Source: Calditrichota bacterium
GTDB taxonomy: Bacteria; Calditrichota; Calditrichia; Calditrichales; J004
Direction of reading: 5' to 3'
Length of the DNA: 34,922 bases
Assembly: GCA_024277115.1 (NCBI GenBank)
Contig: JAJRVW010000088.1
Span: 1 to 34,922 of the forward strand
Shown here: one piece after another, positions 972 through 26,514 of the stretch
Position numbering within the stretch: the stretch's first letter is position 1
Layout of the letters: each line of letters opens with the position of its first letter
Program-made: the position numbers and the translations under genes
The notes under the pieces: model-generated
What the model was told of the DNA's origin: nothing
Seen by the model: only the letters and a program-made list of their open reading frames with translations
Databases searched by the model: none

Positions 972-2099
972 ATGAATTTATCGCTACTAAACAAAACAGA
1001 AAACAGGTATAAGCTACTTATCGTTCTTTTAATTGCTATTATCTCCACCCTCCATTTTGATACGGACACCATGAAATGGCAGTATCATCTTGTTTACATG
1101 CAGGCCTATTTTATACCAATAATTCTTGGTGCTTTTGTTTTCGGGAAATCTGGTGGGCTTGGCACAGCGGTTATTGTGAGCTTTGTCTATTTGCCACATA
1201 TTATGTTTCAGCATGGTGGGCTGGTTGAAAATAACTTAATGCGTTTTTTACAGATTGCTTTGTTTAACACTGTTGGCTATTTAATCGGGTTGAAAGCACA
1301 AGGTGAACGGACCGAGAAAGAAAAATATCAGAAAACCGCGACAGAGTTAGAGAGTTCACTGAAACAGTTAAAAGTGCAATCAGAAAAAGTTTCTGAGATG
1401 GAAGAGCAAGTCCGTGCTGCCGATAGGTTGTCCATTGTTGGCGAACTTACGGCAAGCCTGGCCCATGAAGTGCGCAACCCTTTAGGCTCTATCCGGGGCG
1501 CTGTAGAAATTATCCGCGATGCGGTGCCGGAGGATGTAAAAAAATTGGAATTTTTTGATATTTTAATCCAGGATACTGAACGGCTAAATCAGGTTGTGGA
1601 AACTTACCTGGGTTTTTCCAAAAAACAAGTACCGCGATTTTCCACATATAGTTTAAACGAAACAATCCAAAACATTGCCTTAATGATTGGCGCACAGGCA
1701 CGAAAATCAAATATCAAGCTTATCACCAATCTCTCCCCTCGCCAAATATCATTGACGGGAAACCCCAACCATGTCTGGCAAATTATCATGAATATCACCC
1801 TGAATTCTATACAGGCCATGCCGGATGGTGGTGAAATAATAATTGCGCTCTCGATGGATAAAACAGCAGAAAATAAAATTCTTTTAACAATCAAAGATCA
1901 GGGCAAAGGAATCCCGGAAGCGGAACTGGATAAAATATTTAAACCCTTCTACACAAGTAAAAGTGATGGGACCGGTCTTGGCCTTGCAATTGTAAAGCGG
2001 CTTATTGATGAAAATAAGTGGGAGATTTCAGTTGACACAAAAGAAGGTGTTGGCACTGAATTTGCTATAAGAATGCCCATAAATGAATCACACTCTTAA
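972..2099 (+). CDS. Membrane-bound sensor histidine kinase (NtrB/ZraS-like)
   Basis: Encodes 375 residues. The N-terminal 110 or so residues hold three to four membrane segments with short loops, so there is no large periplasmic sensor domain and the stimulus is probably read in or near the membrane. A coiled-coil linker (about 115-155) leads to the HisKA box LAHEVRNPLGS with phospho-acceptor His165. The HATPase_c domain shows the N box (NITLNSIQAMPDGG), G1 (DQGKGIP), F box (KPFYTSK) and G2 (GTGLGLAI). This HisKA type is typical of kinases that pair with NtrC-family regulators, and such a regulator starts 17 bases downstream. The start is uncertain because the only purine run (GGGG) nearly touches the ATG; no in-frame upstream ATG is available. 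The signal is unknown; metal or envelope stress is inferred from the neighbouring genes and predicted regulon. Confidence 0.9.
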   Translation: MNLSLLNKTENRYKLLIVLLIAIISTLHFDTDTMKWQYHLVYMQAYFIPIILGAFVFGKSGGLGTAVIVSFVYLPHIMFQHGGLVENNLMRFLQIALFNTVGYLIGLKAQGERTEKEKYQKTATELESSLKQLKVQSEKVSEMEEQVRAADRLSIVGELTASLAHEVRNPLGSIRGAVEIIRDAVPEDVKKLEFFDILIQDTERLNQVVETYLGFSKKQVPRFSTYSLNETIQNIALMIGAQARKSNIKLITNLSPRQISLTGNPNHVWQIIMNITLNSIQAMPDGGEIIIALSMDKTAENKILLTIKDQGKGIPEAELDKIFKPFYTSKSDGTGLGLAIVKRLIDENKWEISVDTKEGVGTEFAIRMPINESHS

Positions 2100-2116: not shown

Positions 2117-3469
2117 ATGCGTGTATTGCTTATCGATGACGATATTAATTTGGGCAAAGTTATAGGTTATCAACTTGAAAAATACGGCTATGAAGTTGAT
2201 AAATGTTCTAATGGTACGGATGGAATAGCTCAGTTTAAAAAAAATGCCTATGATATTGTAATTAGCGACATACAAATGCCGGATATTTCCGGGATAGATG
2301 TTCTGCAAGAAGTACGCCGGATAAACAAACAGGTCGTGGTGATTATGATTACAGCCTTTGGGAGTGTAGACAACGCCATGGAAGCCTGCCGATTGGGCGC
2401 CGATGATTATATCTCGAAGCCCTTTGGCCAGGAACAACTGTTTTTTACCATCGAAAAAGCCGTCCGTCTCCGGGCATTACAATCAGAAAACCTGGAACTG
2501 CGCAGTAAGCTGAAAGATAAGTTCCGGTTTGAAAACATGGTTGCCAATAGCGGCGCCATGCAAAATATTTTGCGGATAACACAAAAGGTGGCCGCCAGTA
2601 ATGCGTCGGTAATCATTTTGGGCGAAAGCGGTACGGGAAAAGAACTTATTGCCCGTGCCATTCATTACGGCAGCCCCCGCAAAGATAAATCCCTTATAAC
2701 GGTAAATTGTCCTTCCATTCCCGATAACTTGTTGGAGAGTGAATTGTTTGGCCATGTTAAGGGTGCCTTTACCGGTGCAATAAAAGACCGTATCGGAAAA
2801 TTTGAACAGGCCAATGGCGGCACAATCTTTTTAGATGAAATTGGTGACCTGCGGGAAGAGCTTCAGGCAAAGCTATTGCGGGTTTTGCAAGAGCAGGAGT
2901 TTGACCGGGTGGGTGGAACGAAACCTGTTAAAGTGGATGTACGGGTTATTGCGGCAACTAACCAGAACTTATTGGAGCTTGTTAAGCAAAAAAAATTCCG
3001 TGAAGATTTGTACTATCGTTTAAGTGTGGTCCCAATAAATTTGCCCGCCCTGCGAAAGCGTACTGATGATATTCCTTTTTTAATTGATTTTTTTCTAAAA
3101 CGATTTTATGGCGAGCAGGACTATACAATCTCCGGAGAGGTGATTTCGGCGTTAAAATTATATGAGTGGCCGGGCAATGTACGCGAGCTGGAAAATGTTA
3201 TCGAGCGTATGGTTACGCTTGCTACGGATAATAAAATCACGTTAAACGACCTGCCGGAATATATCGGGCTTCACGGCCATGATGCCGCTTCGTTTGCAAT
3301 AAAAATCCCCGAAGAAGGGATCTCGCTGGATTCGATTGAGCGGTTGGTTATAAAAGAAATGCTTGAACGGACGGGCAATAATCAATCGCAAACAGCGCGG
3401 ATGTTACAGATACCGAGGCACGTTTTATTATACCGAATGAAAAAATTAGGAATAGAATCTGAACATTAG
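2117..3469 (+). CDS. NtrC-family sigma54-dependent response regulator
   Basis: Encodes 450 residues with the full three-domain layout. The receiver domain (1-120) has the acidic pocket D7-D9, phospho-acceptor D51 in ISDIQMP, the T in ITAFGS and the K in SKPF. The central AAA+ domain (about 140-370) has Walker A GESGTGKE (169-176), the sigma54-contacting GAFTGA loop (216-221), Walker B GGTIFLDEIGD and the late motif YEWPGNVRELENV. The C-terminus carries a Fis-type helix-turn-helix (NNQSQTARMLQIPRHVLLYRMKKLGI). It should therefore activate only -24/-12 promoters. The window contains several such promoters with a common 16-bp dyad upstream, making this protein the best candidate activator (inference). 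It is co-transcribed with the kinase. Family assignment is secure; ligand, signal and regulon are not. Confidence 0.97.
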   Translation: MRVLLIDDDINLGKVIGYQLEKYGYEVDKCSNGTDGIAQFKKNAYDIVISDIQMPDISGIDVLQEVRRINKQVVVIMITAFGSVDNAMEACRLGADDYISKPFGQEQLFFTIEKAVRLRALQSENLELRSKLKDKFRFENMVANSGAMQNILRITQKVAASNASVIILGESGTGKELIARAIHYGSPRKDKSLITVNCPSIPDNLLESELFGHVKGAFTGAIKDRIGKFEQANGGTIFLDEIGDLREELQAKLLRVLQEQEFDRVGGTKPVKVDVRVIAATNQNLLELVKQKKFREDLYYRLSVVPINLPALRKRTDDIPFLIDFFLKRFYGEQDYTISGEVISALKLYEWPGNVRELENVIERMVTLATDNKITLNDLPEYIGLHGHDAASFAIKIPEEGISLDSIERLVIKEMLERTGNNQSQTARMLQIPRHVLLYRMKKLGIESEH

Positions 3470-7832: not shown

Positions 7833-8174
7833 ATGATCTTACAAAGAAAACAAATCCTAATGGCAGCACTAATATTTTTTGGTGTAGTGGGCAGTTTTAT
7901 GTTTTTCCCAATCCAGTTGGATGAAGGTTATACATGTCTCTATCATCAGGTTTTTGACAATGATCATCCAGTCTGGGATCAACAGGGTGTTGCCAATCAA
8001 ATAGGAGAGCACCATACCACAGGAATGATAAACGCTTATATTAGTGGATATGCTTTTTTTTGGTGGGGAAGCTTGGCGCTTATTGCACTTGGGGTTTATC
8101 AACTGAAGTTATATAAAAATACAAACTTAAAAAACGACACTTTAAATAAATATCCAAACGGAGGGTTAAATTAA
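7833..8174 (+). CDS. Small two-TM membrane protein at the head of the cus-type operon
   Basis: Encodes 113 residues with two hydrophobic segments (about 8-27 and 70-92). Between them lies a loop of about 45 residues with one Cys and several His/Asp (YTCLYHQVFDNDHPVWDQ, GEHHTTGM), probably facing the periplasm. Its stop overlaps the ATG of the CusC-like gene (TAATG), so the two are translationally coupled. I do not recognise a family. Position and the His/Cys/Met loop suggest a metal-related accessory of the efflux pump (inference). The start is uncertain: the ribosome site is poor, and an in-frame ATG at 7860 would remove nine residues without affecting the membrane segments. Confidence 0.75.
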   Translation: MILQRKQILMAALIFFGVVGSFMFFPIQLDEGYTCLYHQVFDNDHPVWDQQGVANQIGEHHTTGMINAYISGYAFFWWGSLALIALGVYQLKLYKNTNLKNDTLNKYPNGGLN

Positions 8175-9457
8175 TGCGAAAAAGAGTAGTATCATGGGTC
8201 TTGCCTGTGTTATTGTTGTCCATCGGGTTTGCTTTTGGGCAGGAAAACAACAAGCCCCTAATTTTAGATGACTTAATAGAAGAGGGTTTGGCAAATAACC
8301 CGCAATTACAGTCGTTTTATACTAAAACCCAGGCTGATTTGGCAAAGGTGCCACAAGCTGGTTCATTGCCCGATCCATTGGTGAGTTTAAATCTTCTTAA
8401 TCTCCCATTAGATAACTTTGTTTTTGACCAAGAACCGATGACAGGAAAACAAGTTGCCGTAAAACAGAAGTTTCCTTTTCCTGGCAAATTGGGCCTTAAA
8501 GAAAATATTGCACGAAAGGGGGCTGATGTTTCTGATGCCAATTGGCAGGAATTACGTATACAGTTGGTCCGTAATATTAAATTATCCTACTATGATCTGT
8601 ATTATGTTGATGAAGCAATCTCCACAACAGAAAAGAACCGAGATCTTTTGGTTGAATTTGTTAAAATCGCGGAGCAAAAATATGCCGTTGGTAGTGGTAT
8701 CCAGCAAGATGTGCTTAAGGCGCAAGTAGAACTTTCTAAAATGATTGACAGGCTGATAAAGTTAGAACAAAACCGAGAGTCGATTGAAGCGCGATTGAAT
8801 GCGCTGTTGAACCGTAAGGCGAGCCAGCCTTTCGCAAAAACACGTAAGATTGCCTATAACGAGTTGAAACTTGTACAGGATGATCTTGAAGCTTTAACCA
8901 CCGGAAATCGTCCTCTTTTTAAAGCATGGATTTCCCGGATAGAACAAAGCGAAGAAAGAATTGCGCTTGCTAAAAAACAATACATGCCGGATTTCTCGAT
9001 TTTTGCCGCTTACACCCAACGTGATGAATTGCAGACCGGGTTAGGTGGGGCAGATTTTTTTTCTGCCGGAATTACACTGGAAGTACCTCTTTATTTTTGG
9101 CGTAAACAACGAAAAAGAGTAGAAGAAACCCAACTGCTTCGGCAAAGTGTTGAACAAAGGTACATGGATATCAAATCTCAAACTTTTTCAAAGTTGGATG
9201 ATGCTATCACAGAGCTTTATAAAAACAATAAGCGTCTCGAGTTATATAAAACAAGTATTGTCCCTCAGGCATCACAATCGTTACAATCAGCAATGATTGG
9301 TTACCAGACGGATAAGGTTGACTTTTTAACCCTTGTTGACAACCAGATAACGCTTTTTAATTTGGAGCTAGAATATTCACGAATTTTAAGCGACTACAAT
9401 AAAGATATTGCAGACATTGAATATTTAACGGGTGGCGAGCTATCCCAAAAAGAATAA
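8174..9457 (+). CDS. cusC: Outer-membrane efflux channel, TolC/CusC family
   Basis: Encodes 427 residues with a signal peptide (about 1-22, ending FAFGQ). The mature protein has the two tandem outer-membrane efflux domains of the TolC fold: long amphipathic helices (LIEEGLANNPQLQSF, VRNIKLSYYDLYYVDEAI, SVEQRYMDIKSQTFSKLDDAITEL) separated by strand segments (DFSIFAAYTQRDE, FFSAGITLEVPLYFW). It is slightly shorter than E. coli CusC, as is common for heavy-metal RND channels of this phylum group. It overlaps the small membrane gene upstream by one base and precedes the CusB- and CusA-like genes, so it should be the outer-membrane duct of the tripartite pump. Lack of a lipobox is a difference from E. 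coli CusC. The symbol is by homology class, not proven orthology. Confidence 0.92.
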   Translation: MRKRVVSWVLPVLLLSIGFAFGQENNKPLILDDLIEEGLANNPQLQSFYTKTQADLAKVPQAGSLPDPLVSLNLLNLPLDNFVFDQEPMTGKQVAVKQKFPFPGKLGLKENIARKGADVSDANWQELRIQLVRNIKLSYYDLYYVDEAISTTEKNRDLLVEFVKIAEQKYAVGSGIQQDVLKAQVELSKMIDRLIKLEQNRESIEARLNALLNRKASQPFAKTRKIAYNELKLVQDDLEALTTGNRPLFKAWISRIEQSEERIALAKKQYMPDFSIFAAYTQRDELQTGLGGADFFSAGITLEVPLYFWRKQRKRVEETQLLRQSVEQRYMDIKSQTFSKLDDAITELYKNNKRLELYKTSIVPQASQSLQSAMIGYQTDKVDFLTLVDNQITLFNLELEYSRILSDYNKDIADIEYLTGGELSQKE

Positions 9458-9501
9458 ATAAAATTGAAGAATTAATATAGAATACTCAAATGGAGGTACA
9501 A

Positions 9502-11010
9502 ATGATATACACCCTTTTAAAACGCTCCGTGTTCATTAGCGTTGTTTTACTTACTTTTTTTATTATATCGTGTGGATCAGACGGTTCTGGGGAAAAGTCC
9601 ACAACCGATGGCACAGTGGAAAAGACTGAAAGCACAAAGAAGGAACGTAAAGTAAAATATTGGCAAGCCCCGATGAATCCAAGTGAAATCTATGACAGGC
9701 CGGGCAAATCCGCTATGGGTATGGACTTAGTACCTGTTTATGAAGGCGATGATGAAGAAACCGGCGGAACAATAAAAATTGATCCACTTACCAGCCAAAA
9801 CATGGGCGTACGTACAGCATTTGTAGAAAAAGTTGATTTTATAAGGGTATTACGAACTGTTGCGCGTGTTGACTATGATGAGGAGTCCTTGTATGCGGTA
9901 TCTCCTAAAATATCGGGCTGGGTCGAGAAATTATATGTAGAGTATGAGGGTGAAGAAGTTAAAAAAGGGCAGGCCCTGCTGGAAATATATTCTCCGGAAC
10001 TTGTAACAACTCAACAGGAATTTCTTTTGGCATTAAAAAACAAAGAACTCATTGGCTCCTCTAGTTTTAAGAGTGTGCGTGATGGAGCTGAATCCCTTCT
10101 TAAGGCCAGCCGTCTTCGCCTTACCTATTGGGATATTCCGGAATCGGAAATACTCGAACTCGAAAAAAGTGGAAAAGTCCGTAAAACACTTACGCTCGAA
10201 TCCCCGGCAAATGGCGTGATCATTAAGAAAAACGTTTTTGAAGGTTTGCATGTTAAAAGTGGTACACACTTATATCAAATTGCCGACCTTTCTAAGGTTT
10301 GGGTGTATGCAAGCATATATGATGACGAAGCTAGCTGGATAAAAGAAGGCCAGGAAGTTGAAATTGAGCTTTCTTATGCTGCAGGTAAAAAATTAAAAGG
10401 ACGCGTGACTTATATTTACCCTTATTTGAATGAAAAAGCACGGGATATTCAGGTACGCATCGAAATTGAAAACCCAAAACGGGAGCTTAAACCGGGAATG
10501 TATGCAAATATCCTGATAAAAACCTCTCCAATTAAAAATTCACTTGTTGTACCTACCGAAGCGGTAATCCGTTCCGGCCAGCGTAATGTAGTATTTATTG
10601 CCCTGGAAAAAGGCCGGTTTGAACCAAGGGATGTTGTGATTGCGGAAGAGAGTGAAGATGGTAAAATGCGCATTACGTCTGGCCTTGAAGAGCACGAAAA
10701 AATTGTTACATCTGCACAATTCCTTATTGACAGTGAGAGCCGTCTACAAGAAGCGATTCAAAAAATGCTTGCCCGGAAATCAGGGGATTCACCTATGCCT
10801 GCTAAGAAAAAAATGGATATGTCTGGTGAGAAGGATAGCAATAAGAGTGGGGTGGACTCGGACATGAAATGCGGCGATGGCATGGATATGGAAAAGAAAA
10901 GTAATACAAAGATGGAAAAAGAATCAGATATGAAATGTGGTGATGGTATGGATATGGAAAAGAAAAACCAGACGAAAATGGACCACGATAAAGATGGCCA
11001 TGATAATTAA
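9502..11010 (+). CDS. cusB: Heavy-metal RND periplasmic adaptor (CusB-like) with Met-rich tail
   Basis: The start at 9502 is chosen because GGAGGT at 9492-9497 lies 4 bases before it; an ATG at 9490 lacks a site. The 502-residue product has a lipoprotein signal (FFIISC, Cys24). It has a heavy-metal binding segment (about 50-80, YWQAPMNPS...GMDLVPVYEG), whose usual CPMHP cysteine is lost but whose methionines remain. Barrel-sandwich, alpha-hairpin and beta-barrel segments of a membrane fusion protein follow. The C-terminus (about 430-502) is an extra Met/Lys/Asp tail containing two near-identical units around DMKCGDGMDMEKK, ending DHDKDGHDN. CusB proteins collect Cu(I)/Ag(I) in the periplasm and pass it to CusA. 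No separate CusF gene is seen, so the tail may serve as a built-in metal collector (inference). Confidence 0.93.
   Translation: MIYTLLKRSVFISVVLLTFFIISCGSDGSGEKSTTDGTVEKTESTKKERKVKYWQAPMNPSEIYDRPGKSAMGMDLVPVYEGDDEETGGTIKIDPLTSQNMGVRTAFVEKVDFIRVLRTVARVDYDEESLYAVSPKISGWVEKLYVEYEGEEVKKGQALLEIYSPELVTTQQEFLLALKNKELIGSSSFKSVRDGAESLLKASRLRLTYWDIPESEILELEKSGKVRKTLTLESPANGVIIKKNVFEGLHVKSGTHLYQIADLSKVWVYASIYDDEASWIKEGQEVEIELSYAAGKKLKGRVTYIYPYLNEKARDIQVRIEIENPKRELKPGMYANILIKTSPIKNSLVVPTEAVIRSGQRNVVFIALEKGRFEPRDVVIAEESEDGKMRITSGLEEHEKIVTSAQFLIDSESRLQEAIQKMLARKSGDSPMPAKKKMDMSGEKDSNKSGVDSDMKCGDGMDMEKKSNTKMEKESDMKCGDGMDMEKKNQTKMDHDKDGHDN
10864..10968 (+). repeat. Short in-frame tandem repeat in the CusB-like tail
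   Basis: Two copies, 66 bases apart, of a segment encoding MKCGDGMDMEKK (near 10864 and 10930). They differ mostly at third positions (GCGGC versus TGGTG-type changes), so the duplication is not brand new and the residues have been conserved. Each unit holds one Cys and three Met, suited to Cu(I) or Ag(I). Confidence 0.75.
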
Positions 11011-11146
11011 TCAAAAAGCGCTTGGCCAAACAAAATGTTCATCGTTTCTGAAAGTTATGTGCTGAAAATGCTTTCACAGAAGAGTTCATAGATTAGAATA
11101 CTCAGAGTTATTGAGTGGAAAACGAGACATATTATGGAGAAAATAG
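11011..11146. other. 136-bp gap between the CusB- and CusA-like genes
   Basis: No gene and no clear terminator. It contains GCTTGGCCAAAC and a loosely palindromic stretch, but no -12 element fits. The CusA-like gene is probably read from the upstream promoter; an internal weak promoter cannot be excluded. Confidence 0.3.
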
Positions 11147-14100
11147 ATGTTAGAAAAGATAATTGAAGCTTCGGTAAATAACCGGGTTATGGTATTGATT
11201 TTTACCGCTTTTACTATTTTGGGTGGAATATATATGCTGCTGGATACGCCTGTAGACGCCATTCCTGATTTAAGTGATGTGCAGGTGATTGTCTTTACAG
11301 AATTCCCGGGACAGGCACCCCAAGTGGTTGAAGATCAGGTAACTTACCCATTAACAACAGCAATGCTTGCCGTTCCCTTTGCGAAAGTGGTACGTGGCTA
11401 TAGTTTTTTTGGGTTTTCATTTGTATACATAATTTTTGAGGATGATACGGATTTATATTGGGCACGAAGCAGGGTATTGGAATATCTGAATTATGTGTCT
11501 AGCCGCTTGCCCAACGGGGTAACACCAACATTGGGCCCTGATGCCACAGGTGTCGGTTGGGTATACGAATATATTTTAGATGGTGGTGATAAATATTCTG
11601 TACAAGAATTACGTTCGATGCAAGACTGGTTCCTCCGCTACGAGCTGACCACAGTGCCAGGTGTTGCCGAGGTAGCCAGTATAGGTGGTTATGTAAAACA
11701 ATATCAGGTAGAAGTAGACCCGAATAAACTATTGGCCTACAATATACCCATCCAAAAAGTCCGAATGGCCATAAAACGCAGTAATAATGATGTTGGCGGC
11801 AAATTAGTTGAAATGGCTGAGACCGAATTTATGGTCCGTGGGCTTGGTTATATTAAATCTGTGGAAGACATTAAAAATATACCTGTGGGTGTTGACGAAA
11901 ATGGTTCCCCAATATTAATAAATCAAATCGCCAATGTTCAAATTGGCCCGGAACTGCGCCGTGGCCTTACTGACTGGAACGGCAAAGGTGAGGTGGCCGG
12001 CGGTATTATTGTGATGCGTTTTGGCGAAAATGCATTAAAAACGATCGAGCTAGTGAAAGAAAAGCTAGAGGAGTTAAAGAAAGGTTTACCTGAAGGGGTA
12101 AAAATAGAAACAGCCTATGACCGGTCAAGTTTGATATTGCGGGCGATCGACAACCTCAAATTTAAACTTATCGAGGAAACAATTGTCGTGGCTTTGGTCT
12201 GTATAATATTCCTCTTGCACTTCCGTAGCGCCTTTGTTGCGATATTTACACTGCCCGTGGGTATTCTGATGGCTTTTATGGTGATGAACTACCAGGGGTT
12301 AAATGCAAATATAATGTCGTTAGGAGGTATCGCGATCGCTATTGGCGCGATGGTGGATGCGGCGATAGTGATGATTGAAAACGCCCACAAGCATATTGAA
12401 AGGGATGGTGGCAAAAAGGACCACTGGCAAATAATTATCGATTCGTCTAAAGAAGTGGGGCCAGCCCTTTTCTATTCGTTGTTAATTATTACACTTTCTT
12501 TCTTACCTGTTTTTACCTTGCAGGCACAAGAAGGGCGCTTGTTTAAGCCATTGGCTTTTACGAAAACATACTCAATGGCAGCCGCAGCTCTGCTTGCATT
12601 GACAGTTGTCCCTGTTTTTATGGGTTATTTTATCCGTGGCAATATCATGCCGGAAGAAAAAAATCCTGTAAACCGCTTTTTAATTAAACTTTACCGTCCT
12701 GTCATCAACTTGGTTTTACGTTTTAAGTGGAGCACGCTTGGCCTGGCTTTGGTGGTATTGGCCATCTCAATATGGCCCCTGGAGAAAATCGGTTCCGAGT
12801 TTATGCCTCCGTTAAATGAAGGCGACTTGCTCTATATGCCTACGATGGATCCCGGCATCTCTATTACCAAGGCGAAAGAGATTTTACAACAGACAGATAA
12901 AATAATCAGGACATTTCCAGAAGTACACCATGTTTTTGGTAAGATTGGCCGGGCAGAAACAGCGACTGATCCAGCACCGCTTTCGATGATAGAAACGACC
13001 ATCCGTTTGATGCCTGAAGAAGAATGGCGCGAAGGGATGACAGTAGAAAAGCTTGTGGAGGAAATGGATTCAGCCATTAAATTTGCCGGTGTGACCAATG
13101 CCTGGACAATGCCAATTAAAACCCGTATAGATATGCTTTCTACCGGTATTAAGACCCCGGTAGGTATTAAGCTTATGGGCCCCGACTTGCAGGTGCTTTC
13201 CGACTTGGGTCAGGAGATTTCCAATTTATTAATAGATATGGACGGTACGCTGAGTGCCTTTCCAGACAAAGCGGTAGGCGGAAACTATTTCGATTTTGAA
13301 ATTAATAGAAAAGAAGCAGCCCGTTATGGTTTAACCGTCGGTGATATTCAGGACGTGATCATGTCAGCTATCGGCGGGATGAATGTAACATATACGGTTG
13401 AGGGATTGGAACGCTATCCGGTAAATGTAAGGTATAGCCGTGAATTGCGCGATAACCTAAGTATGTTAAAAAGGGTTTTGGTACCCACACCAACAGGTGC
13501 GCAGATCCCCATTAGCTACGTCGCCGATATAGTGGTTAGGAAAGGCCCCCCTAGTATTAAAAGTGAAAATTCACGTCAGACATCCTGGATTTATGTAGAC
13601 CTGCGTGGTATCGATGTGGGTACCTATGTTAAGAATGCCAAGGAGTTATTAGATAAGGAATTTGAACTTCCACAGGGCTATAGCATAATGTGGTCCGGGC
13701 AATACGAATATATGGAACGTGCGGCAAAACGTTTACGTGTTGTTATCCCTGTGACACTGGTTATCATATTCATGTTGTTATTCTTCAATTTTAAAAATGT
13801 ACAGGAAAGTCTTATCGTGATGCTTTCGTTGCCATTCTCGCTGATTGGTGGCATCTGGTATCTCTATATTCTGGACTATGATTTTAGTGTTGCGGTGGGT
13901 GTCGGTTTTATTGCCCTGGCAGGTGTTGCGGCGGAAACGGGGGTCATAATGCTTATTTACCTTGACCATGCCTATCATAATATGAAAGATAAAGGTATGA
14001 TGCGTTCGCTACATGATTTGTACGACGCCATTATTGAAGGGGCTGTGGATCGTGTAAGGCCAAAAATGATGACGGTTACGGCAATCATGGCCGGTTTAAT

Positions 14101-14305
14101 ACCCATTATGTGGGGGCACGGAACAGGCTCGGAAGTTATGAAACGTATTGCAGCGCCAATGGTTGGCGGGATGGTTTCTTCCACAGTTTTAACACTGGTT
14201 GTAATCCCGGCTATTTATTTCCTTTGGAAAAGCAGGGAAGTCAATAAAATAGCAGAACAACTGGCCTTAGAGGAGGCTAATTCCTCCGGGTCTGGACAAA
14301 AGTAG
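11147..14305 (+). CDS. cusA: Heavy-metal RND efflux pump, CusA-like (Cu/Ag type)
   Basis: Encodes 1052 residues, the normal length for this family, with GGAG 8 bases before the ATG. It shows the RND layout: TM1 at the N-terminus (NNRVMVLIFTAFTILGG), a large periplasmic loop, TM2-6, TM7 (STLGLALVVLAISIWPL), a second loop and TM8-12. The TM4 signature GGIAIAIGAMVDAAIVMIENAHKHIE is that of the monovalent-cation (CusA/SilA) group; Zn/Co pumps carry DFGxxxD there. Other family marks are TPVDAIPDLSDVQV and AGVAAETGVIMLIYLDHA. The pump exports Cu(I) or Ag(I) from periplasm or cytoplasm to the outside using the proton gradient, with the upstream adaptor and channel. It is followed by a strong terminator. 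Substrate type is inferred from the signature only. Confidence 0.96.
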   Translation: MLEKIIEASVNNRVMVLIFTAFTILGGIYMLLDTPVDAIPDLSDVQVIVFTEFPGQAPQVVEDQVTYPLTTAMLAVPFAKVVRGYSFFGFSFVYIIFEDDTDLYWARSRVLEYLNYVSSRLPNGVTPTLGPDATGVGWVYEYILDGGDKYSVQELRSMQDWFLRYELTTVPGVAEVASIGGYVKQYQVEVDPNKLLAYNIPIQKVRMAIKRSNNDVGGKLVEMAETEFMVRGLGYIKSVEDIKNIPVGVDENGSPILINQIANVQIGPELRRGLTDWNGKGEVAGGIIVMRFGENALKTIELVKEKLEELKKGLPEGVKIETAYDRSSLILRAIDNLKFKLIEETIVVALVCIIFLLHFRSAFVAIFTLPVGILMAFMVMNYQGLNANIMSLGGIAIAIGAMVDAAIVMIENAHKHIERDGGKKDHWQIIIDSSKEVGPALFYSLLIITLSFLPVFTLQAQEGRLFKPLAFTKTYSMAAAALLALTVVPVFMGYFIRGNIMPEEKNPVNRFLIKLYRPVINLVLRFKWSTLGLALVVLAISIWPLEKIGSEFMPPLNEGDLLYMPTMDPGISITKAKEILQQTDKIIRTFPEVHHVFGKIGRAETATDPAPLSMIETTIRLMPEEEWREGMTVEKLVEEMDSAIKFAGVTNAWTMPIKTRIDMLSTGIKTPVGIKLMGPDLQVLSDLGQEISNLLIDMDGTLSAFPDKAVGGNYFDFEINRKEAARYGLTVGDIQDVIMSAIGGMNVTYTVEGLERYPVNVRYSRELRDNLSMLKRVLVPTPTGAQIPISYVADIVVRKGPPSIKSENSRQTSWIYVDLRGIDVGTYVKNAKELLDKEFELPQGYSIMWSGQYEYMERAAKRLRVVIPVTLVIIFMLLFFNFKNVQESLIVMLSLPFSLIGGIWYLYILDYDFSVAVGVGFIALAGVAAETGVIMLIYLDHAYHNMKDKGMMRSLHDLYDAIIEGAVDRVRPKMMTVTAIMAGLIPIMWGHGTGSEVMKRIAAPMVGGMVSSTVLTLVVIPAIYFLWKSREVNKIAEQLALEEANSSGSGQK

Positions 14306-16750: not shown

Positions 16751-16760
16751 AACATTTTAA

Positions 16761-18441: not shown

Positions 18442-18470
18442 TTTAAGAAATAATAATCTTGGAGTTTAAA

Positions 18471-18746
18471 ATGAAATTAAAGAGAATAAGTAAATATACC
18501 ATTGTTGCCATTTTCTTTTTTGCAGCACTATTTGTTTTAGAAAGTTGCTCATCAAAAAATGCATCCGCTGCGAAACCGGGCGCTGTTTTATGGGGCGAAA
18601 ATTGTATACGTTGCCATAATGCGCCTTCACCAGCGGCTTTTAGTGACGAACAATGGGAAACAATCACTTTGCATATGCGTGTTAGGGCAAGTTTGACCGC
18701 GAACGAAACAGAGAAAGTTGTTGAATTCCTGAAGATGGCAAACTAG
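18471..18746 (+). CDS. Small monoheme cytochrome c lipoprotein
   Basis: The ATG at 18471 is preferred over an upstream TTG at 18459 because GGAG at 18461-18464 lies correctly before it; the product is 91 residues. The lipoprotein signal ends FVLESC (Cys26). The single haem site is CIRCH (45-49) in WGENCIRCHNAPSPAAFSDEQWE, followed by a helix and VVEFLKMAN. No typical distal Met loop is seen; M56-57 region methionines or the Met in ITLHMRVR could serve. It belongs with short cytochromes c of the diheme/cyt c552-like type that sense or shuttle single electrons. Third gene of the unit starting at 16853. Confidence 0.88.
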   Translation: MKLKRISKYTIVAIFFFAALFVLESCSSKNASAAKPGAVLWGENCIRCHNAPSPAAFSDEQWETITLHMRVRASLTANETEKVVEFLKMAN

Positions 18747-20092: not shown

Positions 20093-20107
20093 TGGCACTT
20101 AATTTGT
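20093..20107 (+). promoter_or_regulatory. Sigma54 (-24/-12) promoter of the CsgG-like/ccmF/ABC operon
   Basis: TGGCACTTAATTTGT: a perfect TGGCAC at -24 and TTTGT at -12 with proper spacing. Start of transcription is expected near 20119, about 40 bases before the first ATG. Confidence 0.75.
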
Positions 20108-20157
20108 AAAGCAGATAGGCAAGTCTGAATTGTTATTATAAAAAGTGAAAGGTAAAA

Positions 20158-20733
20158 ATGAAAAATTTAAGCCCTATATATTCTAAAACATTCTTGAAGA
20201 TGGCAAGCCGCTTTTTAATTTTGATTGTCGGTCTGAATTTTCTTTCCTCGTGCATGATGTTTGGCATGCATGGTAAAAACAGATCTTCAAGTTTGTCGTT
20301 AAAGCAAGAGAAGCCCCAAAGCGAATCTGTAATTTTAGATGAGATGATTGATAAAGCTGTTCTTGAATTTTCCAATAAGGATGGCATTAAAATAAAAACC
20401 ATTGCAGTATGGAAACTTAAAACGCACTCTACTTCTATCGACCCGGAAAATATCCGACAAAAAATTATTACCAACCTGGTAAACAATACTTCCTATAAGG
20501 TTATATCCCGTGAACATCTGGATAAATTACTGGCAGAGCAAAGCCTGTCAATTAGTGGCACAATTGATAGTACAAGTGCCATTAGTATTGGTAAATTAAT
20601 TGGGGTAGAAGGTTTTATTACTGGCTATATTTCAAAGCAGGAAAAAAGGATAGAGTTAAGCTTAAGTTTAATTAAAACAACGACGGGTGAAGTTCTCTGG
20701 TCAAAATTTCAGAAAGAAAAAACAGCATACTAA
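20158..20733 (+). CDS. CsgG/LpoB-like lipoprotein
   Basis: Encodes 191 residues. A long N-region and hydrophobic segment end in NFLSSC (Cys32), a lipobox. The mature domain (about 60-190) reads like the CsgG/LpoB/FlgO superfamily: KIKTIAVWKLKTHSTSIDPENIRQKIITNLVNN split around a helix, KVISREHLDKLLAEQ, then SAISIGKLIGVEGFITGYISKQ and a closing strand pair (IELSLSLIKTTTGEVLWSKF). These proteins bind periplasmic or outer-membrane partners (cell-wall synthases, curli export); the partner here is unknown. It is the first gene of the sigma54-driven operon, 28 bases before the CcmF-like gene. Its task in that operon cannot be deduced. Confidence 0.82.
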   Translation: MKNLSPIYSKTFLKMASRFLILIVGLNFLSSCMMFGMHGKNRSSSLSLKQEKPQSESVILDEMIDKAVLEFSNKDGIKIKTIAVWKLKTHSTSIDPENIRQKIITNLVNNTSYKVISREHLDKLLAEQSLSISGTIDSTSAISIGKLIGVEGFITGYISKQEKRIELSLSLIKTTTGEVLWSKFQKEKTAY

Positions 20734-20761
20734 TTTAATTTTTTGATTGAAAGGAAATGAA

Positions 20762-23014
20762 ATGAAATTTGGTATTTTTAGCATTTATGCATCACTTATT
20801 GCCATGATCTATTCATCATGGTATTATTTTCAGGTTTATCAGGAAGAGAAGCATTCCAAACCTCAAAAGCTACAAAAGGATATTCTCACCTATAACATTA
20901 AACAAGCCCGTTTGGGGTATTTTGCCATGACCGGCATGATAAGTGTGGCCTCCATATATTTGTGGGTTTTAATTTTCACGCACCAGTTTCAGGTAGATTA
21001 TATTTATCGCTATACATCAAGCGATCTAAGTGCCGGCTATCTGTTTTCTGCATTCTGGGCTGGGCAGGAAGGTTCGTTTCTCTTCTGGGCCTTAATGCTT
21101 GCGTTAATGGGAACCGTTTTTATACACTATGCCCGAAAACTTGAGTCAGGTGCAATGTTAACGATAAACCTCGTCCAGATTGCATTTCTTCTTTTGTTAA
21201 TCAAAGCCGGGCCATTTGTACTTTCGGGCTCTTTTCCTGTTGAAGGCGCCGGGCTTAATCCATTATTACAAAACCCCTGGATGGTCATACATCCTCCAAT
21301 ATTGTTTTTAGGTTATGCAGCTACAACCATTCCTTTTGCAATAGTAATCGCCGCCCTATTAAACCATGAGTATAAATCTTGGATAAAAATTGCTTTTCCC
21401 TGGACATTGTTCGCGTCTATTACAATGGGGGCCGGGATAATAATTGGCGGCTATTGGGCTTACAAGGTACTTGGTTGGGGCGGTTACTGGGGATGGGACC
21501 CTGTAGAGAATTCTTCCCTGATTGCATGGCTTTCTGTTTTGGCCCTTTTTCATGGTTTGCTCATAAGCCGCTTCCGGGGTGGGTTTCAAAAAACTAATTT
21601 TGCCCTGGCTATTTTTAGTTTTGTGCTTGTACTGTATGCGACCTTCCTGACACGCAGCGGTGTACTTGCCGATTTTTCCGTGCATTCCTTTCAGGATTTA
21701 GGAATAAACGGTTACTTAACCCTTTATATAATTGGGTCGTTGTCTTTTGGTCTGGCTTTACTATATCAAAGAAAAAACGAAATTCCCTTTGTCGAAATTT
21801 CTTTTGATTCCCTCACTAAAGAAAATATTTTGGTGATTACAGTATTAATCCTGGTTACAAGCGCATTCTTTATTCTACTCGGCACGTCATCACCTCTCAT
21901 CACAAATTTATTGGGCCGCCCGGCACAGGTTGAAACAAGTTTTTATAATATCGTCAACTTACCTATTGGGATATTGATGTCGGTAGCGCTGGGTATTGCA
22001 CCGGTTTTATTATGGAAAAGTGAAGGACTAAAAAAAATAATAACTGAACTTGTTTTGTCTGTTTCTATTGCCATTGTTGCTGCCTTAATAGCAATAAGCT
22101 TTGGGATGGAAAAGATACTAAATATCTTATTTTTGGTTTCTGCTGTATTTGCGTTGGTCAGTAATTTTATGATGTTGATAAAAAATATAAGATTTGGCTG
22201 GAACCTGATTGTTGCCCCTATAGCGCATGTTGGCGTTGCTTTAATGTTTATCGGGATTATTGTTTCGGGTGTGTTTGACAAATCTGAACGGGTTATTTTA
22301 ACCCAAGACACCCTGCAAAATGTGCTTGGAAATGATTTAGTTTATAAAGGGGAGTTTCAGGAGCCGGGTGGTAAAACGGGTGTTTTAATTGAAGTCCAAA
22401 ATGGAAACTCCAAATTTATGGCTAACCCACATCTGTACCAAAATAGCTATACACAGGGCGAAATGCGCGAGCCGCATGTGGAAGAAAATTTTTTAAATGA
22501 TTTATATATCTCCCCACTACAGGTGATAGATAAAGTGGGTATAGAGCAGGCTAACCTTTTAACCCTTTCCAAGGGGCAAAAAAAGAAATTTGCCGGTTAT
22601 GATGTTCGCTTTAGCACATTTGATATGGATACGCATCAGCAGGAAAATGGCGAATTTCGAGTAGCGGCAGTAATTCAATTTACAAAAGGTTCGCAATCTT
22701 TTGAGGTAAAACCCGCCATCGTATTACGGGGCAAGGAGCAGGAGTACGAACCGGCGCAATTGCCAAAGAGGGATGAACAAGGAACACCGGGAAAAATATT
22801 ACTAAGCGGTATAAACCCGGAAAAGAAAAGTATCCAGCTTTCTTTTGACGGGTGGCTTAAAGAAGGAGATATAAAAGAAACGCCAAATCAGGTTGTTGTG
22901 GAGGTAAGCAACAAGCCGTTGATGAGCGTGCTTTGGCTTGGCACGATCTTATTGACCCTTGGCACATTACTTGCCATGAGAAGACGTACAATGGAATTAA
23001 AAACTTCAATTTAA
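20762..23014 (+). CDS. ccmF: CcmF/NrfE-like cytochrome c haem lyase subunit
   Basis: ATG at 20762 is preferred to an in-frame TTG at 20747, since AAAGGAAAT sits just before it; 750 residues. It is a polytopic membrane protein (about 14 segments). It carries the haem-handling protein signature: FWAGQEGSFLFWA near the N-terminus, HPPILFLGY, and the Trp-rich WWD motif GWGGYWGWDPVENSS at about 237-251, exposed to the periplasm. A soluble periplasmic domain lies near the C-terminus (about 520-725) before the last TM (LGTILLTLGTLLAM). CcmF attaches haem to CxxCH sites of apocytochromes together with CcmH. The next gene encodes a CcmH-like module, and three cytochromes c are made from nearby genes. 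No ccmABCDEG are in the window, so this is probably a dedicated or second haem lyase. Confidence 0.9.
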   Translation: MKFGIFSIYASLIAMIYSSWYYFQVYQEEKHSKPQKLQKDILTYNIKQARLGYFAMTGMISVASIYLWVLIFTHQFQVDYIYRYTSSDLSAGYLFSAFWAGQEGSFLFWALMLALMGTVFIHYARKLESGAMLTINLVQIAFLLLLIKAGPFVLSGSFPVEGAGLNPLLQNPWMVIHPPILFLGYAATTIPFAIVIAALLNHEYKSWIKIAFPWTLFASITMGAGIIIGGYWAYKVLGWGGYWGWDPVENSSLIAWLSVLALFHGLLISRFRGGFQKTNFALAIFSFVLVLYATFLTRSGVLADFSVHSFQDLGINGYLTLYIIGSLSFGLALLYQRKNEIPFVEISFDSLTKENILVITVLILVTSAFFILLGTSSPLITNLLGRPAQVETSFYNIVNLPIGILMSVALGIAPVLLWKSEGLKKIITELVLSVSIAIVAALIAISFGMEKILNILFLVSAVFALVSNFMMLIKNIRFGWNLIVAPIAHVGVALMFIGIIVSGVFDKSERVILTQDTLQNVLGNDLVYKGEFQEPGGKTGVLIEVQNGNSKFMANPHLYQNSYTQGEMREPHVEENFLNDLYISPLQVIDKVGIEQANLLTLSKGQKKKFAGYDVRFSTFDMDTHQQENGEFRVAAVIQFTKGSQSFEVKPAIVLRGKEQEYEPAQLPKRDEQGTPGKILLSGINPEKKSIQLSFDGWLKEGDIKETPNQVVVEVSNKPLMSVLWLGTILLTLGTLLAMRRRTMELKTSI

Positions 23015-23029
23015 GATGGGAATATAAAA

Positions 23030-23479
23030 ATGGAAAAGAACAAAATATGTCCGGCCTGTGAGGCAGCCAATAATTTATCGGCCAAATTTTGTAATGAGTG
23101 CGGGACAAACCTGCAATTAGATCAGGATAAAAAACAATGTTCAAGTTGTGGTTTTAAAAATAGTAACGATTCAAAATTTTGTTTTAACTGCGGTGAAGCA
23201 TTTGGTGAAAAAAAGATATCGCCCAAACTAAAGCAAAAACAACAGAACAGGGTACGGCGGGAAAAAAAACATACTCCCGAAACCAAATCAGTACAGCCGC
23301 TGACAATTGCAGTAATAGCCATTGCGCTAGTGGTCGTTTATTTATTTTTATCCAACGACAATAAACCGCAAGCTCTCCGCCCGGTGGTAGAAACCCCTCG
23401 GCCTTTTAATGAGCAAAAACTGGCCGACCCTGCCAAAGAAGCCATTGTTTTGGATATCGCGTCCAAGTTTATTTGTTAG
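23030..23479 (+). CDS. Double zinc-ribbon membrane protein, first part of a CcmH-like gene cut by an amber codon
   Basis: Encodes 149 residues up to TAG at 23477-23479. Two treble-clef zinc ribbons (CPACEAANNLSAKFCNECG and CSSCGFKNSNDSKFCFNCG) occupy residues 7-60. A basic linker, one TM segment (about 90-107, LTIAVIAIALVVVYLFL) and an external stretch that ends DIASKFIC follow. The same frame continues after the TAG without any other stop to 23950, and the broken motif (IC-stop-CGTC...CTC) aligns with an intact copy downstream (ACTCGQC...CNC). The two frames therefore derive from one gene of about 306 codons. The ribbons probably face the cytoplasm and the CcmH-like part the periplasm. Whether the stop is real, read through or a sequence error cannot be decided here. 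Confidence 0.8.
   Translation: MEKNKICPACEAANNLSAKFCNECGTNLQLDQDKKQCSSCGFKNSNDSKFCFNCGEAFGEKKISPKLKQKQQNRVRREKKHTPETKSVQPLTIAVIAIALVVVYLFLSNDNKPQALRPVVETPRPFNEQKLADPAKEAIVLDIASKFIC
23477..23479 (+). other. In-frame amber codon inside a Cys motif
   Basis: TAG lies between TGT and TGC, at the position equivalent to Thr in the second Cys module of the same protein (ACTC). Frame, Cys spacing and reading continue normally on both sides, so only this codon interrupts the gene. Confidence 0.85.
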
Positions 23480-23533
23480 TGCGGTACATGTGGCGAACAG
23501 CCTTTAAATACCTGCACGTGTAACGTAGCTCAA

Positions 23534-23950
23534 ATGCAGAGGGACTTTATCCGTAACGGCCTGCAAAACAATCAGGATCAGGAAACAATAATCAAAGCCG
23601 TTAACGCAAAATATGGATGGATAAAACCCGAGTTTGAAGGCAAATATGGCCCGGGCAAATTTAGGTTGGATGCAAAACAAAATAACCCGCTTGCGCCAGG
23701 GTTGGATATTTTGGGTAAAAAGAATGTAATAAAGCCAGCCTTGTTTTCGGACCGCTTATCCATTATTTCCAGTTTTGCCTGCACGTGCGGCCAATGCCAG
23801 ATCGATGAATTAAAAGATTGTAATTGTAACCACCCGGGTGGGGCAACCGAGGTGAAAAAATTTATAGACCAGAAAATAGCGGAAGCATCATACTCGAAAG
23901 AAAATATAATCCAGCTTGTAGAAGCACGCTACGGAAACAGAATAAGATAG
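23534..23950 (+). CDS. CcmH-like thiol protein, C-terminal part of the gene interrupted at 23477
   Basis: The longest frame with an ATG begins here, but the coding frame is continuous back to 23480 and, through one TAG, to 23030. It encodes the end of a first CcmH-like module (QRDFIRNGL...ETIIKAVNAKYGW), a linker, and a complete second one: FACTCGQCQIDELKDCNC followed by KKFIDQKIAEASYSKENIIQLVEARYG. CcmH/NrfF proteins have a short Cys motif, then a three-helix bundle with an A/R-rich helix, and end in xYG; they reduce apocytochrome thiols and pair with CcmF, the gene just upstream. Having two modules with four or five Cys each instead of one CxxC is unusual. No ribosome site precedes the ATG, so independent translation is doubtful. 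Confidence 0.7.
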   Translation: MQRDFIRNGLQNNQDQETIIKAVNAKYGWIKPEFEGKYGPGKFRLDAKQNNPLAPGLDILGKKNVIKPALFSDRLSIISSFACTCGQCQIDELKDCNCNHPGGATEVKKFIDQKIAEASYSKENIIQLVEARYGNRIR

Positions 23951-23961
23951 GAGGAATAGAA

Positions 23962-24642
23962 ATGGCAATATTTTGCACTTACTGCGGAAACCAACTCGAT
24001 GAAACAGCAAATTTTTGTACAAATTGTGGTAATCAGATCGGTGGTTCAACAACAGAAAAGAAACTTGATTTTTCTACAAAACGGGAAAAAGTTTTAGGTA
24101 ATAAAAAAAATACAACAGGTAATAAGGGAATGATTTATTCCATACTTGGTGTATTGGGTATACTCGGTTTTGTTGCATTTTTTAACAGCTTGCCTTCCCG
24201 GGCCAATCCAATCATAGAAAAACAACCGGTTGTTACAAAGGCATTTAATTATCCAGATGCACCTAAGCGAATGGCGCTTACAAAAGCCACCGTTCGTGAT
24301 GGTAAAATTATAATCCCTCTAGATGCCCTCAAAAAGGAAAAGTTTTTAAAATTTAACTATGCGTCAAATAATTTAAATACACCGCTCTTAGCGTACATTT
24401 CCGGTGAGGGCAAAGTTGTAACGGCCATTAGTATGTGCGAGCCGTGTAACTCCACCTCATTTCATATCCGTGGGGAGAAATTGGTTTGTAACTCCTGCGG
24501 TACAACCTGGGAGCTGGATAATTTGAGCGGGTTGGATGGTTCGTGCCAAAAATATCCACCGGATGCTCTTCCAAGCATTATTGTAGATAATGAAATCCAA
24601 ATTGATGAATCTATTGTGGCCGGATGGCAGCGCCGGATTTAA
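23962..24642 (+). CDS. Zinc-ribbon membrane protein with DUF2318-like metal domain
   Basis: Encodes 226 residues; a strong AGGAGG precedes the ATG. An N-terminal zinc ribbon (CTYCGNQLDETANFCTNCG) is followed by a TM segment (about 54-72) and an external domain (about 100-226). That domain ends with a Cys-rich region: ISMCEPCNSTSFHIRG, LVCNSCGTTWEL, then DGSCQKYPP. The Cys spacing matches the DUF2318 family (predicted Fe-S or metal-binding membrane protein). In the iron-uptake loci of Campylobacter-type bacteria, DUF2318 genes stand beside FtsX-like permeases and an ABC ATPase; here the next two genes are exactly those. It therefore probably works with the downstream ABC transporter in metal or redox traffic at the membrane. 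The zinc-ribbon head is shared with the previous gene and is not part of DUF2318. Confidence 0.82.
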   Translation: MAIFCTYCGNQLDETANFCTNCGNQIGGSTTEKKLDFSTKREKVLGNKKNTTGNKGMIYSILGVLGILGFVAFFNSLPSRANPIIEKQPVVTKAFNYPDAPKRMALTKATVRDGKIIIPLDALKKEKFLKFNYASNNLNTPLLAYISGEGKVVTAISMCEPCNSTSFHIRGEKLVCNSCGTTWELDNLSGLDGSCQKYPPDALPSIIVDNEIQIDESIVAGWQRRI

Positions 24643-24652
24643 GGAGTAAAAA

Positions 24653-25810
24653 TTGAAACTGTATAATATTTCGCTTAATAGCCTTTGGCGCCGTAAAGCA
24701 CGGATGTTGTTTTTGTTGGTGGGTTTGCTTATTGCCATCAGCACCGTGATAATTTTATTAAATATCACGCAAACTATGAACAATGATATTGCCAATAAAC
24801 TTGATGAGTTTGGGGCAAATATATTAATCGTACCACAATCGGACGAACTTTCTCTTTCGTATGGTGGTATGTCTGTTTCGGGTGTTGCCTTCGATGTAAA
24901 ACCTTTGCAAGAAAGTGATATATTAAAAATTGGCAAGATAAAAAATAAAGATAATATCAAGATTATCTCACCTAAATTATTAAATGTCGCTGAAATCCAG
25001 CAAAAAAAAGTGATGGTCGTTGGCGTGGATTTTGAACAGGAACTGGCCCTTAAAAAATGGTGGATAATAATCGGGGCTACACCAAAGGAAAAAGATGAGG
25101 CCCTTATTGGAGCCGATGTGAAGAAGAAATTAAACCTTAGCCTCGGCCAGGCCATTTTGATTAATGGTGTTCCATTTAAAATAAAAGGAATCCTGGAAGA
25201 AAACGGCTCACAGGATGATCAGCTTGTTCTAATTGACCTGGGCCGCGCACAGCAATTATTTAACAAAGGGTCCGAAATCAGCCTGATCGAAGTAGCGGCT
25301 TTGTGTTACGACTGTCCCATCGAAGATATTGTGGCGCAAACATCGGAGCAGCTACCGGGCGCTAAAGTTACGGCCATCCAGCAAACGATTAAGACAAAAA
25401 TGAAATCAATTGCGCAGTTCGAGCAATTTTCGATCGGTGTTTCGATAGTAATTTTGTTAGTGGCCGGGCTGATTGTGTTTACATCGATGAGCGCATCCGT
25501 AAACGAAAGAAAAAAAGAGATCGGTATTTTTAGGGCCATCGGTTATCGCCAGTCGCATATAATCCAGATAATTTTACAGGAGGCTTTTTTAATAAGTAGT
25601 GTCGCGGGGATTATAGGCTATTTTTTAGGATGGGTGGTTTCTATTTATGTGGCCCCAATGATCGGTGCCGATTCGGTGGCCATATCAATTAATATAAACA
25701 TGATTTCAATTTCGTTAATGATTTCGATTATCATTGGGATGAGCGCCAGTCTGTATCCCTCAATAAAAGCATCACGGTTAGACCCAACCGTGGCGTTGCA
25801 ATCGCTATAA
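24653..25810 (+). CDS. MacB/FtsX-type ABC transporter permease
   Basis: Encodes 385 residues starting at TTG; AAGGAG 5 bases before it and the immediate MKLYNISLNSLWRRKARM favour this start. TM1 (about 18-40) is followed by a large periplasmic MacB-like domain (about 45-255) and three further TM segments (about 262-285, 310-335, 350-375), the four-TM FtsX topology. The signature VNERKKEIGIFRAIGYRQSHI before TM3 is the coupling helix region. The family uses ATP in the cytoplasm to drive periplasmic work (lipoprotein release, efflux, mechanotransmission) and often does not carry substrates across the membrane. It pairs with the ATPase gene 32 bases downstream. Gene order with a DUF2318 protein recalls the Cj1660-Cj1663 type iron system; only one permease is present here. 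Confidence 0.9.
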   Translation: MKLYNISLNSLWRRKARMLFLLVGLLIAISTVIILLNITQTMNNDIANKLDEFGANILIVPQSDELSLSYGGMSVSGVAFDVKPLQESDILKIGKIKNKDNIKIISPKLLNVAEIQQKKVMVVGVDFEQELALKKWWIIIGATPKEKDEALIGADVKKKLNLSLGQAILINGVPFKIKGILEENGSQDDQLVLIDLGRAQQLFNKGSEISLIEVAALCYDCPIEDIVAQTSEQLPGAKVTAIQQTIKTKMKSIAQFEQFSIGVSIVILLVAGLIVFTSMSASVNERKKEIGIFRAIGYRQSHIIQIILQEAFLISSVAGIIGYFLGWVVSIYVAPMIGADSVAISININMISISLMISIIIGMSASLYPSIKASRLDPTVALQSL

Positions 25811-25842
25811 GAAATAATATTAAACTTGGTTTAGGATAAAAA

Positions 25843-26514
25843 ATGAATTTGATACAAATTAACGAGCTTGTAAAAACATACCAAACCGGCCATGAAAAGG
25901 TAAATGCGGTTGATGGTATTTCCCTGGATATTGAATTGGGTGAATTTGTTGCGGTAACAGGCAGTTCCGGCTCAGGGAAAAGTACGCTGCTAACCATGCT
26001 TGGCGGCTTAAGCCACCCGGCTGAAGGAACGGTTGTGATCGATGAGATTGATATTTATGGGTTATCCAAAGAACAACGCGCAGATTTTAGAAAAGAGTAC
26101 GTTGGGTTTGTTTTTCAGTCTTTCCATCTGTTGCCTTATTTGACGGTTCAGGAAAATGTGATGATACCATTGGCCATAAGTAATTTAAGTCAATCGGACA
26201 AAAATGAAATGGCGACCCGCATGTTGGAAAAAGTTGGGCTGAAAGGGAAGGCAAACCGATTACCGAATGAATTAAGTGGTGGTGAGCAAGAGCGGGTTGC
26301 CATTGCCAGGGCTTTGGTTAACGAGCCTCCCCTTATTCTTGCCGATGAGCCAACAGGCAATTTGGATACGGCCACGAGCAATGTTATCATGCAGTTGTTT
26401 AAGCAGTTAAATGAAGAAGGCCAAACCATTGTAATGGTTACCCATGATGAGCAAAATCTGGAATTTACAACGCGAAATATTCAGCTTAAAGATGGGCGTT
26501 TGTTAAAAAATTAA
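25843..26514 (+). CDS. ABC transporter ATP-binding protein (MacB/LolD type)
   Basis: Encodes 223 residues, full length for the family. It has Walker A GSSGSGKS (40-47), the Q-loop ([19 protein letters not shown]), the signature [15 protein letters not shown] (with E instead of the usual Q), Walker [13 protein letters not shown] and the switch His in MVTHDEQNL. This is the LolD/MacB/FtsE group that powers FtsX-type permeases, and its permease is the gene just upstream. It is the last gene of the operon, followed by a bidirectional terminator 10 bases after the stop. Confidence 0.94.

Follow-up and report, generated by a model that had tools for sequence, protein, structure and literature searches.

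Gene content and genomic setting

The contig analysed here (JAJRVW010000088.1) was examined over its entire length, a window of 34,922 bases from a 4.97 Mb draft genome of a member of the Calditrichota, and carries an operon in which genes for a haem lyase of the cytochrome c maturation (ccm) type are combined with genes for a DUF2318/FtrD-like protein and an ABC transporter. Gene calls and Pfam domains bear out the six genes on one strand that an initial annotation, made from the sequence alone, had placed there. A CsgG/LpoB-like lipoprotein (20158..20733, forward strand as are all operon genes; Pfam) is followed by a CcmF/NrfE-type haem lyase, the island paralogue CcmF2 (20762..23014; PF01578, 1.3e-30; PF16327, 2e-26), and by a protein with a double zinc ribbon, a transmembrane (TM) helix and two CcmH-type domains, the frame of which is interrupted by a TAG codon (zrCcmH, 23030..23950; DZR, 1.2e-9; CcmH, 1.1e-11). 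The remaining genes encode a protein with a zinc ribbon, a TM helix and a DUF2318/FtrD-like domain (zrFtrD, 23962..24642; Pfam, 6.7e-21), an FtsX/MacB-type ABC permease (24653..25810; Pfam) with 84% identity to that of genome G001, and a LolD-type ABC ATPase (25843..26514; Pfam and NCBIfam domain searches). The gaps are as short as first described (28, 15, 11, 10 and 32 bases, with ccmF starting from the in-frame ATG at 20762), and a sigma-54 (-24/-12) promoter motif (TGGCACTTAATTTGTA, 20093..20108, forward strand) matching 10 of 11 positions lies 65 bases 5' of the first gene.

Domain searches of the genes in the window identify the contig as a whole as a metal-resistance island with metal efflux and mercury genes, a setting that the initial annotation had overlooked. 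TolC-like, CusB and CusA-type heavy-metal RND (resistance-nodulation-division) efflux genes (8174..14305, forward strand) precede the operon, and genes for Met/His-rich proteins and c-type cytochromes span 14706-18746, between the RND pump and the operon.

Conservation of the cassette in Calditrichota and Ignavibacteria

The order ccmF-zrCcmH-zrFtrD-ftsX-lolD, hereafter the cassette, is identical in relatives from the same genus or family (G001, G003, G004, G005) and the same class (G024, G028), and the part of the cassette covered by the contigs of two further genomes (G036, G017) agrees. Separation of these genes in relatives, which would have spoken against a functional unit, is thus not seen in Calditrichota. 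Beyond this phylum, tandem zinc-ribbon CcmH proteins followed by zrFtrD, ftsX and lolD also occur in metagenome-assembled genomes of Ignavibacteria/Melioribacteraceae, as examples among the matches listed in a scan of species genomes and not as a census. A zrFtrD relative was found in 77 of the 391 sampled genomes of the class of locus L099 (Ignavibacteria), and the best 20 of these loci, which include the near-copies L253/L254 and L263/L264, encode ftsX in all cases and lolD and zrCcmH in 19 each. A CusA-type gene lies within 8.2 kb in 17 of these 20 and a CopA or mer gene is present in the fetched region of two more, while none of 10 ccm loci fetched regardless of FtrD has CusA or CopA nearby. 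The cassette is therefore nearly always tied to CusCBA/CopA/mer metal-efflux islands in two groups.

The least constant member of the cassette is CcmF, which lies directly upstream in Calditrichota; in some Ignavibacteria (L099, L100, L252-L254, L256, L262) it follows lolD at a distance of one to two genes, and at other loci of this group it was not found. The co-occurrence of CcmF, zinc-ribbon CcmH and DUF2318 anticipated in the initial annotation accordingly holds for Calditrichota, while in Ignavibacteria the CcmF component is inconstant. Distant zrFtrD genes without ftsX are found 53-430 bases from CcmF at eight further loci (L257, L266, L268-L271, L281, L282), most of them canonical ccm loci; at five (L281, L282, L266, L269, L270) the zinc-ribbon FtrD gene abuts a canonical ccm locus that has neither ftsX nor lolD.

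A second CcmF and the only CcmH of the genome

The island CcmF has both the CcmF and CcmF_C domains together with the conserved residues of the family: its profile matches the Thermus thermophilus CcmF structure 6zmq over 526 positions (E 6e-85), and the conserved His and tryptophan-rich (WWD) residues are invariant across seven relatives. Its best NCBIfam match is NrfE (1.6e-88), below the family cut-off. The same genome encodes a standard ccmA-B-C-E-F locus on another contig (C173), and the presence of a CcmF of its own in that locus removes the objection, raised at the outset, that the island gene might be the only ccmF accompanying a standard ccm set. A tree of 44 CcmF proteins places the ccm-locus copies of Calditrichota in one clade (support 96/99) and the island copies, together with a few from other settings, in a separate one (support 100/99). 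In G006 and G008, and as a second copy in G001, island-type CcmF is also encoded next to CusA or a metal P-type ATPase, the other cassette genes being absent there.

CcmH domains were found in the own genome only in the operon protein (PF03918, 44.6 bits against a cut-off of 25), and in most Calditrichia genomes no CcmH domain was detected. Most CcmF-bearing Calditrichia lack a recognisable CcmH, as though haem were attached there without it. The identification of the operon gene as a zinc-ribbon CcmH-like protein stands; the gene differs from its first description in two respects, namely that it is not a single open frame and that it encodes two CcmH domains instead of one. Codon 150, within the first CcmH motif, is TAG (23477..23479, forward strand), at a position where relatives encode Ser (TCT/TCC) or Ala (GCC), and every relative reads through. 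The frame 3' of the TAG is under strong selection (pN 0.13, pS 0.83 against the sister species), which argues that the stop is either very recent or a draft-assembly error. Recoding of TAG was rejected, given the Ser/Ala codons of relatives and the gene's own TAG terminator. Read through, the product has two CcmH-type domains (CxCGxC...CxC and CxCGQC...CxC) behind the double zinc ribbon and one membrane helix. Its structure model is of low confidence (pTM 0.33), with only the CcmH-like part recognisable; the best fold match is CcmH 2hl7, itself weak (E 0.15), and a match to NrfF is likewise weak. The single membrane helix after a Lys/Arg-rich stretch suggests that the CcmH and FtrD domains of the two zinc-ribbon proteins face the periplasm. 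Single-domain zinc-ribbon CcmH genes also occur near CopA-type ATPases or CusA with no adjacent CcmF (L083, 3067-3633; L086, 3-431; L101, 3373-3771).

The DUF2318/FtrD-like protein

The FtrD-like protein has a single membrane helix and no YHS domain, and its DUF2318 domain (PF10080, 76.2 bits against a cut-off of 26.3) contains the motif CxxC-x13-CxxC-x15-C (C159/C162/C176/C179/C195). The zinc-ribbon head that it had been reported to share with the CcmH-like protein is real and is kept in 49 of 50 full-length FtrD relatives. Among Protein Data Bank sequences, a search for relatives of the FtrD-like domain with a solved structure found none. In the AlphaFold model the pLDDT of the periplasmic domain is mostly 94-97, and the best Foldseek matches of the model are Rieske ferredoxins and Rieske dioxygenase domains (top match 2i7f, E 7.7e-5, TM-score 0.74 to the target). 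The ligands of a Rieske [2Fe-2S] cluster (CxH...CxxH) are absent: a CxxC stands in place of each (Cys4), and a fifth conserved Cys follows. Profile comparison of DUF2318 with Rieske families pairs the same positions, though with a weak score (E 0.0027, probability 11%), and of 17 background families that of zinc-ribbon CcmH scores almost as well, over 12 columns only, so that the Rieske link rests on the structure prediction. The DUF2318 domain is thus predicted to have a Rieske-type fold with a Cys4 site, for which [2Fe-2S], single Fe, Zn and Cu are all candidate occupants. This would be a concrete structural idea for DUF2318 and one probably valid for FetA, the DUF2318 protein of Campylobacter, too; a redox role or Fe-S site has been proposed for FetA from its Cys spacing (PMC6083913, PMC10783030), with no mention of Rieske in PMC6083913. 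A different DUF2318 cluster with FtsX and LolD was seen at locus L089 (G081), where HMA-domain proteins replace CcmF/CcmH or FTR1.

Sigma-54 promoter and regulation

A sigma-54 motif matching 10-11 of 11 positions lies before the same lipoprotein gene, at a distance of 60-82 bases, in three relatives of the own family (G001, G003 with 11/11, G005), and another is found 177 bases before the lipoprotein gene of G024, compared with a background expectation of 0.017 per 400 bases. This conservation supports the sigma-54 promoter of the initial annotation and suggests that sigma-54 control of the operon holds for the own family, to which clear relatives of the lipoprotein are also confined (G001, G003, G005). 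A sensor histidine kinase (972..2099) and an NtrC-type response regulator, a sigma-54 activator (2117..3469), are encoded on the forward strand of the same island, and the regulator gene is preceded by a perfect motif of its own (2051, 11/11). This local two-component pair may control the operon. A weaker sigma-54-like motif (7779) lies ahead of a small gene preceding the pump operon.

Comparison with known systems

The likeness of part of the operon to the Campylobacter iron locus (fetMP-fetABCDEF), pointed out initially, is genuine: both have a DUF2318 protein with CxxC-x13-CxxC-x14/15-C, an FtsX-type permease, a LolD-like ATPase and a thiol protein partner. In Campylobacter these are FetA, the permeases FetBC, the ATPase FetD and the thioredoxins FetEF; FetA-D are each needed in this redox-dependent system, for which a redox relay has been proposed (PMC10783030). 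In contrast to Fet, the cassette has one permease rather than two, a small, single-TM, zinc-ribbon FtrD without YHS rather than a FetA of eight TM helices plus YHS, and a CcmH-type protein in place of thioredoxins, with CcmF added; it also stands in a metal-efflux setting, whereas Fet serves iron uptake and alone has FTR1 and P19. The absence of FTR1 and P19 from the locus, already noted in the initial annotation, extends to the Calditrichia genomes examined. Neither the FTR1-type iron permease (FetM), for which control genomes were positive, nor P19/FetP (PF10634) was found in any of 40 Calditrichia genomes, and no FTR1 reference match lies near FtrD in any fetched locus. A Campylobacter-type iron uptake system is therefore unlikely.

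With System I maturation (CcmF/CcmH, and its NrfEF variant) the cassette shares intact CcmF residues and CcmH-type Cys domains, but its operon lacks CcmABCE and adds FtrD/FtsX/LolD, its CcmF belongs to a separate clade, and its CcmH has two domains in tandem behind a zinc-ribbon membrane anchor. The surroundings of the cassette, with OEP-CusB-CusA, PII-like and Met/His-rich proteins, are those of CusCBA/CopA copper-silver islands; haem-lyase and DUF2318/ABC genes are not known to be part of described Cus systems. The LolD-like ATPase and FtsX/MacB permease recall LolCDE and MacAB, from which the cassette differs by its one permease, its DUF2318 partner and scores below the curated LolD, LolC/E and MacB cut-offs.

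All of these modules are known; the open-access literature searched holds no account of their combination, of its occurrence in metal islands or of its spread over two groups, and the set is apparently undescribed. Liu et al. stated that DUF2318 genes are almost always located in FTR1/P19 Fet clusters (PMC6083913); this does not hold for the groups examined, and metal-efflux islands with cytochrome-assembly genes represent a large second home for DUF2318 proteins.

Proposed function and alternative explanations

We posit, as a tentative reading to which we give slightly less than an even chance, that metal stress induces the operon and that its products serve maturation and thiol protection in the periplasm, as a module added to an efflux island of the CusCBA type. 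Under metal stress the two-component pair of the island would switch the operon on through sigma-54. CcmF2 and the tandem CcmH, with its CxCGxC...CxC domains in the periplasm and its zinc ribbons in the cytoplasm, would then act as a second haem lyase, which receives its haem from the housekeeping CcmABCE pathway and continues to load cytochromes when Cu, Ag or Hg poison the normal lyase and the thiols of apocytochromes. The FtrD-like protein would be a membrane-anchored Rieske-fold redox or metal protein that, together with FtsX/LolD, keeps the relevant thiols reduced or metal-free, by analogy with Campylobacter, where FetA and FetBCD have been proposed to serve the thioredoxins FetE/F. The steps that we infer are the housekeeping origin of the haem, thiol reduction by FtrD and its ABC partners, induction by metal and control by the local two-component pair. 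The cassette would in this respect resemble a spare, stress-switched kit for haem attachment and the upkeep of extracytoplasmic sulfur groups during metal poisoning.

This proposal is supported by the five-gene order kept in genus, family and class, and by the zrCcmH-zrFtrD-FtsX-LolD core kept in Ignavibacteria, mostly beside CusA; the 10 ccm loci fetched regardless of FtrD have no such neighbours, and no FTR1 match lies near FtrD in the loci fetched. It is further supported by the separate clade of island CcmF proteins, which have intact residues and also occur next to CusA or a metal P-type ATPase in places that lack the rest of the cassette, by the FtrD relatives that adjoin CcmF at eight other loci, and by the restriction of CcmH domains in the own genome to an operon in an island that has c-type cytochromes. 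Copper has been reported, in a review, to attack the biogenesis of cytochrome c and thiol oxidoreductases of the periplasm (PMC7558416), and the requirement for each of FetA-D in a redox-dependent system (PMC10783030) also fits. The proposal links two observations that lack a good explanation, copper damage to cytochrome c assembly and the thiol partners of DUF2318/FtsX/LolD modules, and is testable in cultivable bacteria. Several points weigh against it. Apart from the own family and G024, no sigma-54 motif was seen before the cassette (G028, G017 and Ignavibacteria); in about two thirds of the Ignavibacteria loci CcmF is missing from the fetched region; and the CcmH gene of this very genome is interrupted by a stop. 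The island CcmF could act solely in maturation of the island cytochromes, with no role in stress; the metal handled could be Cu, Ag, Hg or Zn; and the role of the module is read from comparison of sequences. Where the initial annotation had suggested an undescribed stress-inducible pathway for cytochrome assembly or thiol/metal repair, the unit, its sigma-54 motif and its fitting parts hold up, while cytochrome assembly stays conditional. The fullest form of the proposal is an undescribed metal-defence pathway of Calditrichota and Ignavibacteria, controlled by sigma-54, in which an ABC-powered Rieske-fold (Cys4) protein, the tandem CcmH and the second CcmF keep or restore haem-attachment thiols so that c-type cytochromes are made under copper, silver or mercury stress; in its entirety we consider it rather doubtful.

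The main rival is an efflux accessory without a cytochrome role, in which the CcmH and Cys4 FtrD domains would bind or reduce periplasmic Cu/Ag, a MacB-like FtsX/LolD would pass these metals to CusCBA, and CcmF would be a passenger or a lineage-specific addition. The four-gene core without CcmF in many Ignavibacteria islands, the single-domain zinc-ribbon CcmH genes near CopA/CusA with no adjacent CcmF (L083, L086, L101) and the FtrD relatives adjoining CopA-type genes (L274, L276) or HMA-domain genes (L089) would all be expected under such a role, which we nevertheless think possible rather than probable, as the FtrD-CcmF association is repeated in three arrangements and island CcmF remains next to CusA also in places that lack the core. 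Decay of the operon to a nonfunctional state in this genome, compatible with any other reading, is suggested by the in-frame TAG, which removes both CcmH domains; with a selected frame after the stop, a draft assembly in which a single base may be wrong and all remaining operon genes intact, it too seems on balance unlikely.

An NrfE/NrfF-like haem lyase dedicated to one island cytochrome, with the metal context being merely where that cytochrome works, would agree with the NrfE and NrfF matches of the two lyase proteins and with the three c-type cytochromes encoded upstream on the forward strand (16082-16750, 16853-17275 and 18459-18746). Each of these has one ordinary CXXCH motif and CXXCK was not found anywhere in the window, full-length NrfA was not found in the carriers G000, G003-5, G024 and G036, and FtrD/FtsX/LolD would be left unexplained, which makes this explanation improbable and a lyase specific for NrfA unlikely as well. 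Least probable, and very unlikely, would be a derivative of Campylobacter-type Fet iron uptake that still handles iron: the DUF2318 protein, FtsX and ATPase are common to it and fetABCD (PMC6083913, PMC10783030), but the lack of FTR1 and P19, the one permease and single-TM FtrD, and an island serving metal efflux all speak against it.

Neighbouring genes

A porin is encoded among the island cytochrome genes (17308-18441, forward strand). Downstream of the operon, a gene on the reverse strand (26572-28026) encodes a 484-aa, two-repeat lipoprotein-like protein without a Pfam or NCBIfam match, relatives of which (72-74% identical) flank the cassette in G003 and G005. A mercury-type cluster on the reverse strand (30251-34576) comprises an HMA protein, MerA with an N-terminal HMA domain and MerT-like/HMA proteins, and a cluster of this type is likewise located downstream of the cassette in G001 (L075). 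In many Calditrichota relatives (L075, L076, L078, L079, L082, L084) a DUF302-like gene accompanies the cassette or a zinc-ribbon CcmH gene; none was seen in the own contig. Rieske proteins are likewise encoded repeatedly in the vicinity of the cassette, of CopA or of CcmF copies of Calditrichota (L079, L080, L083, L086, L295, L298).

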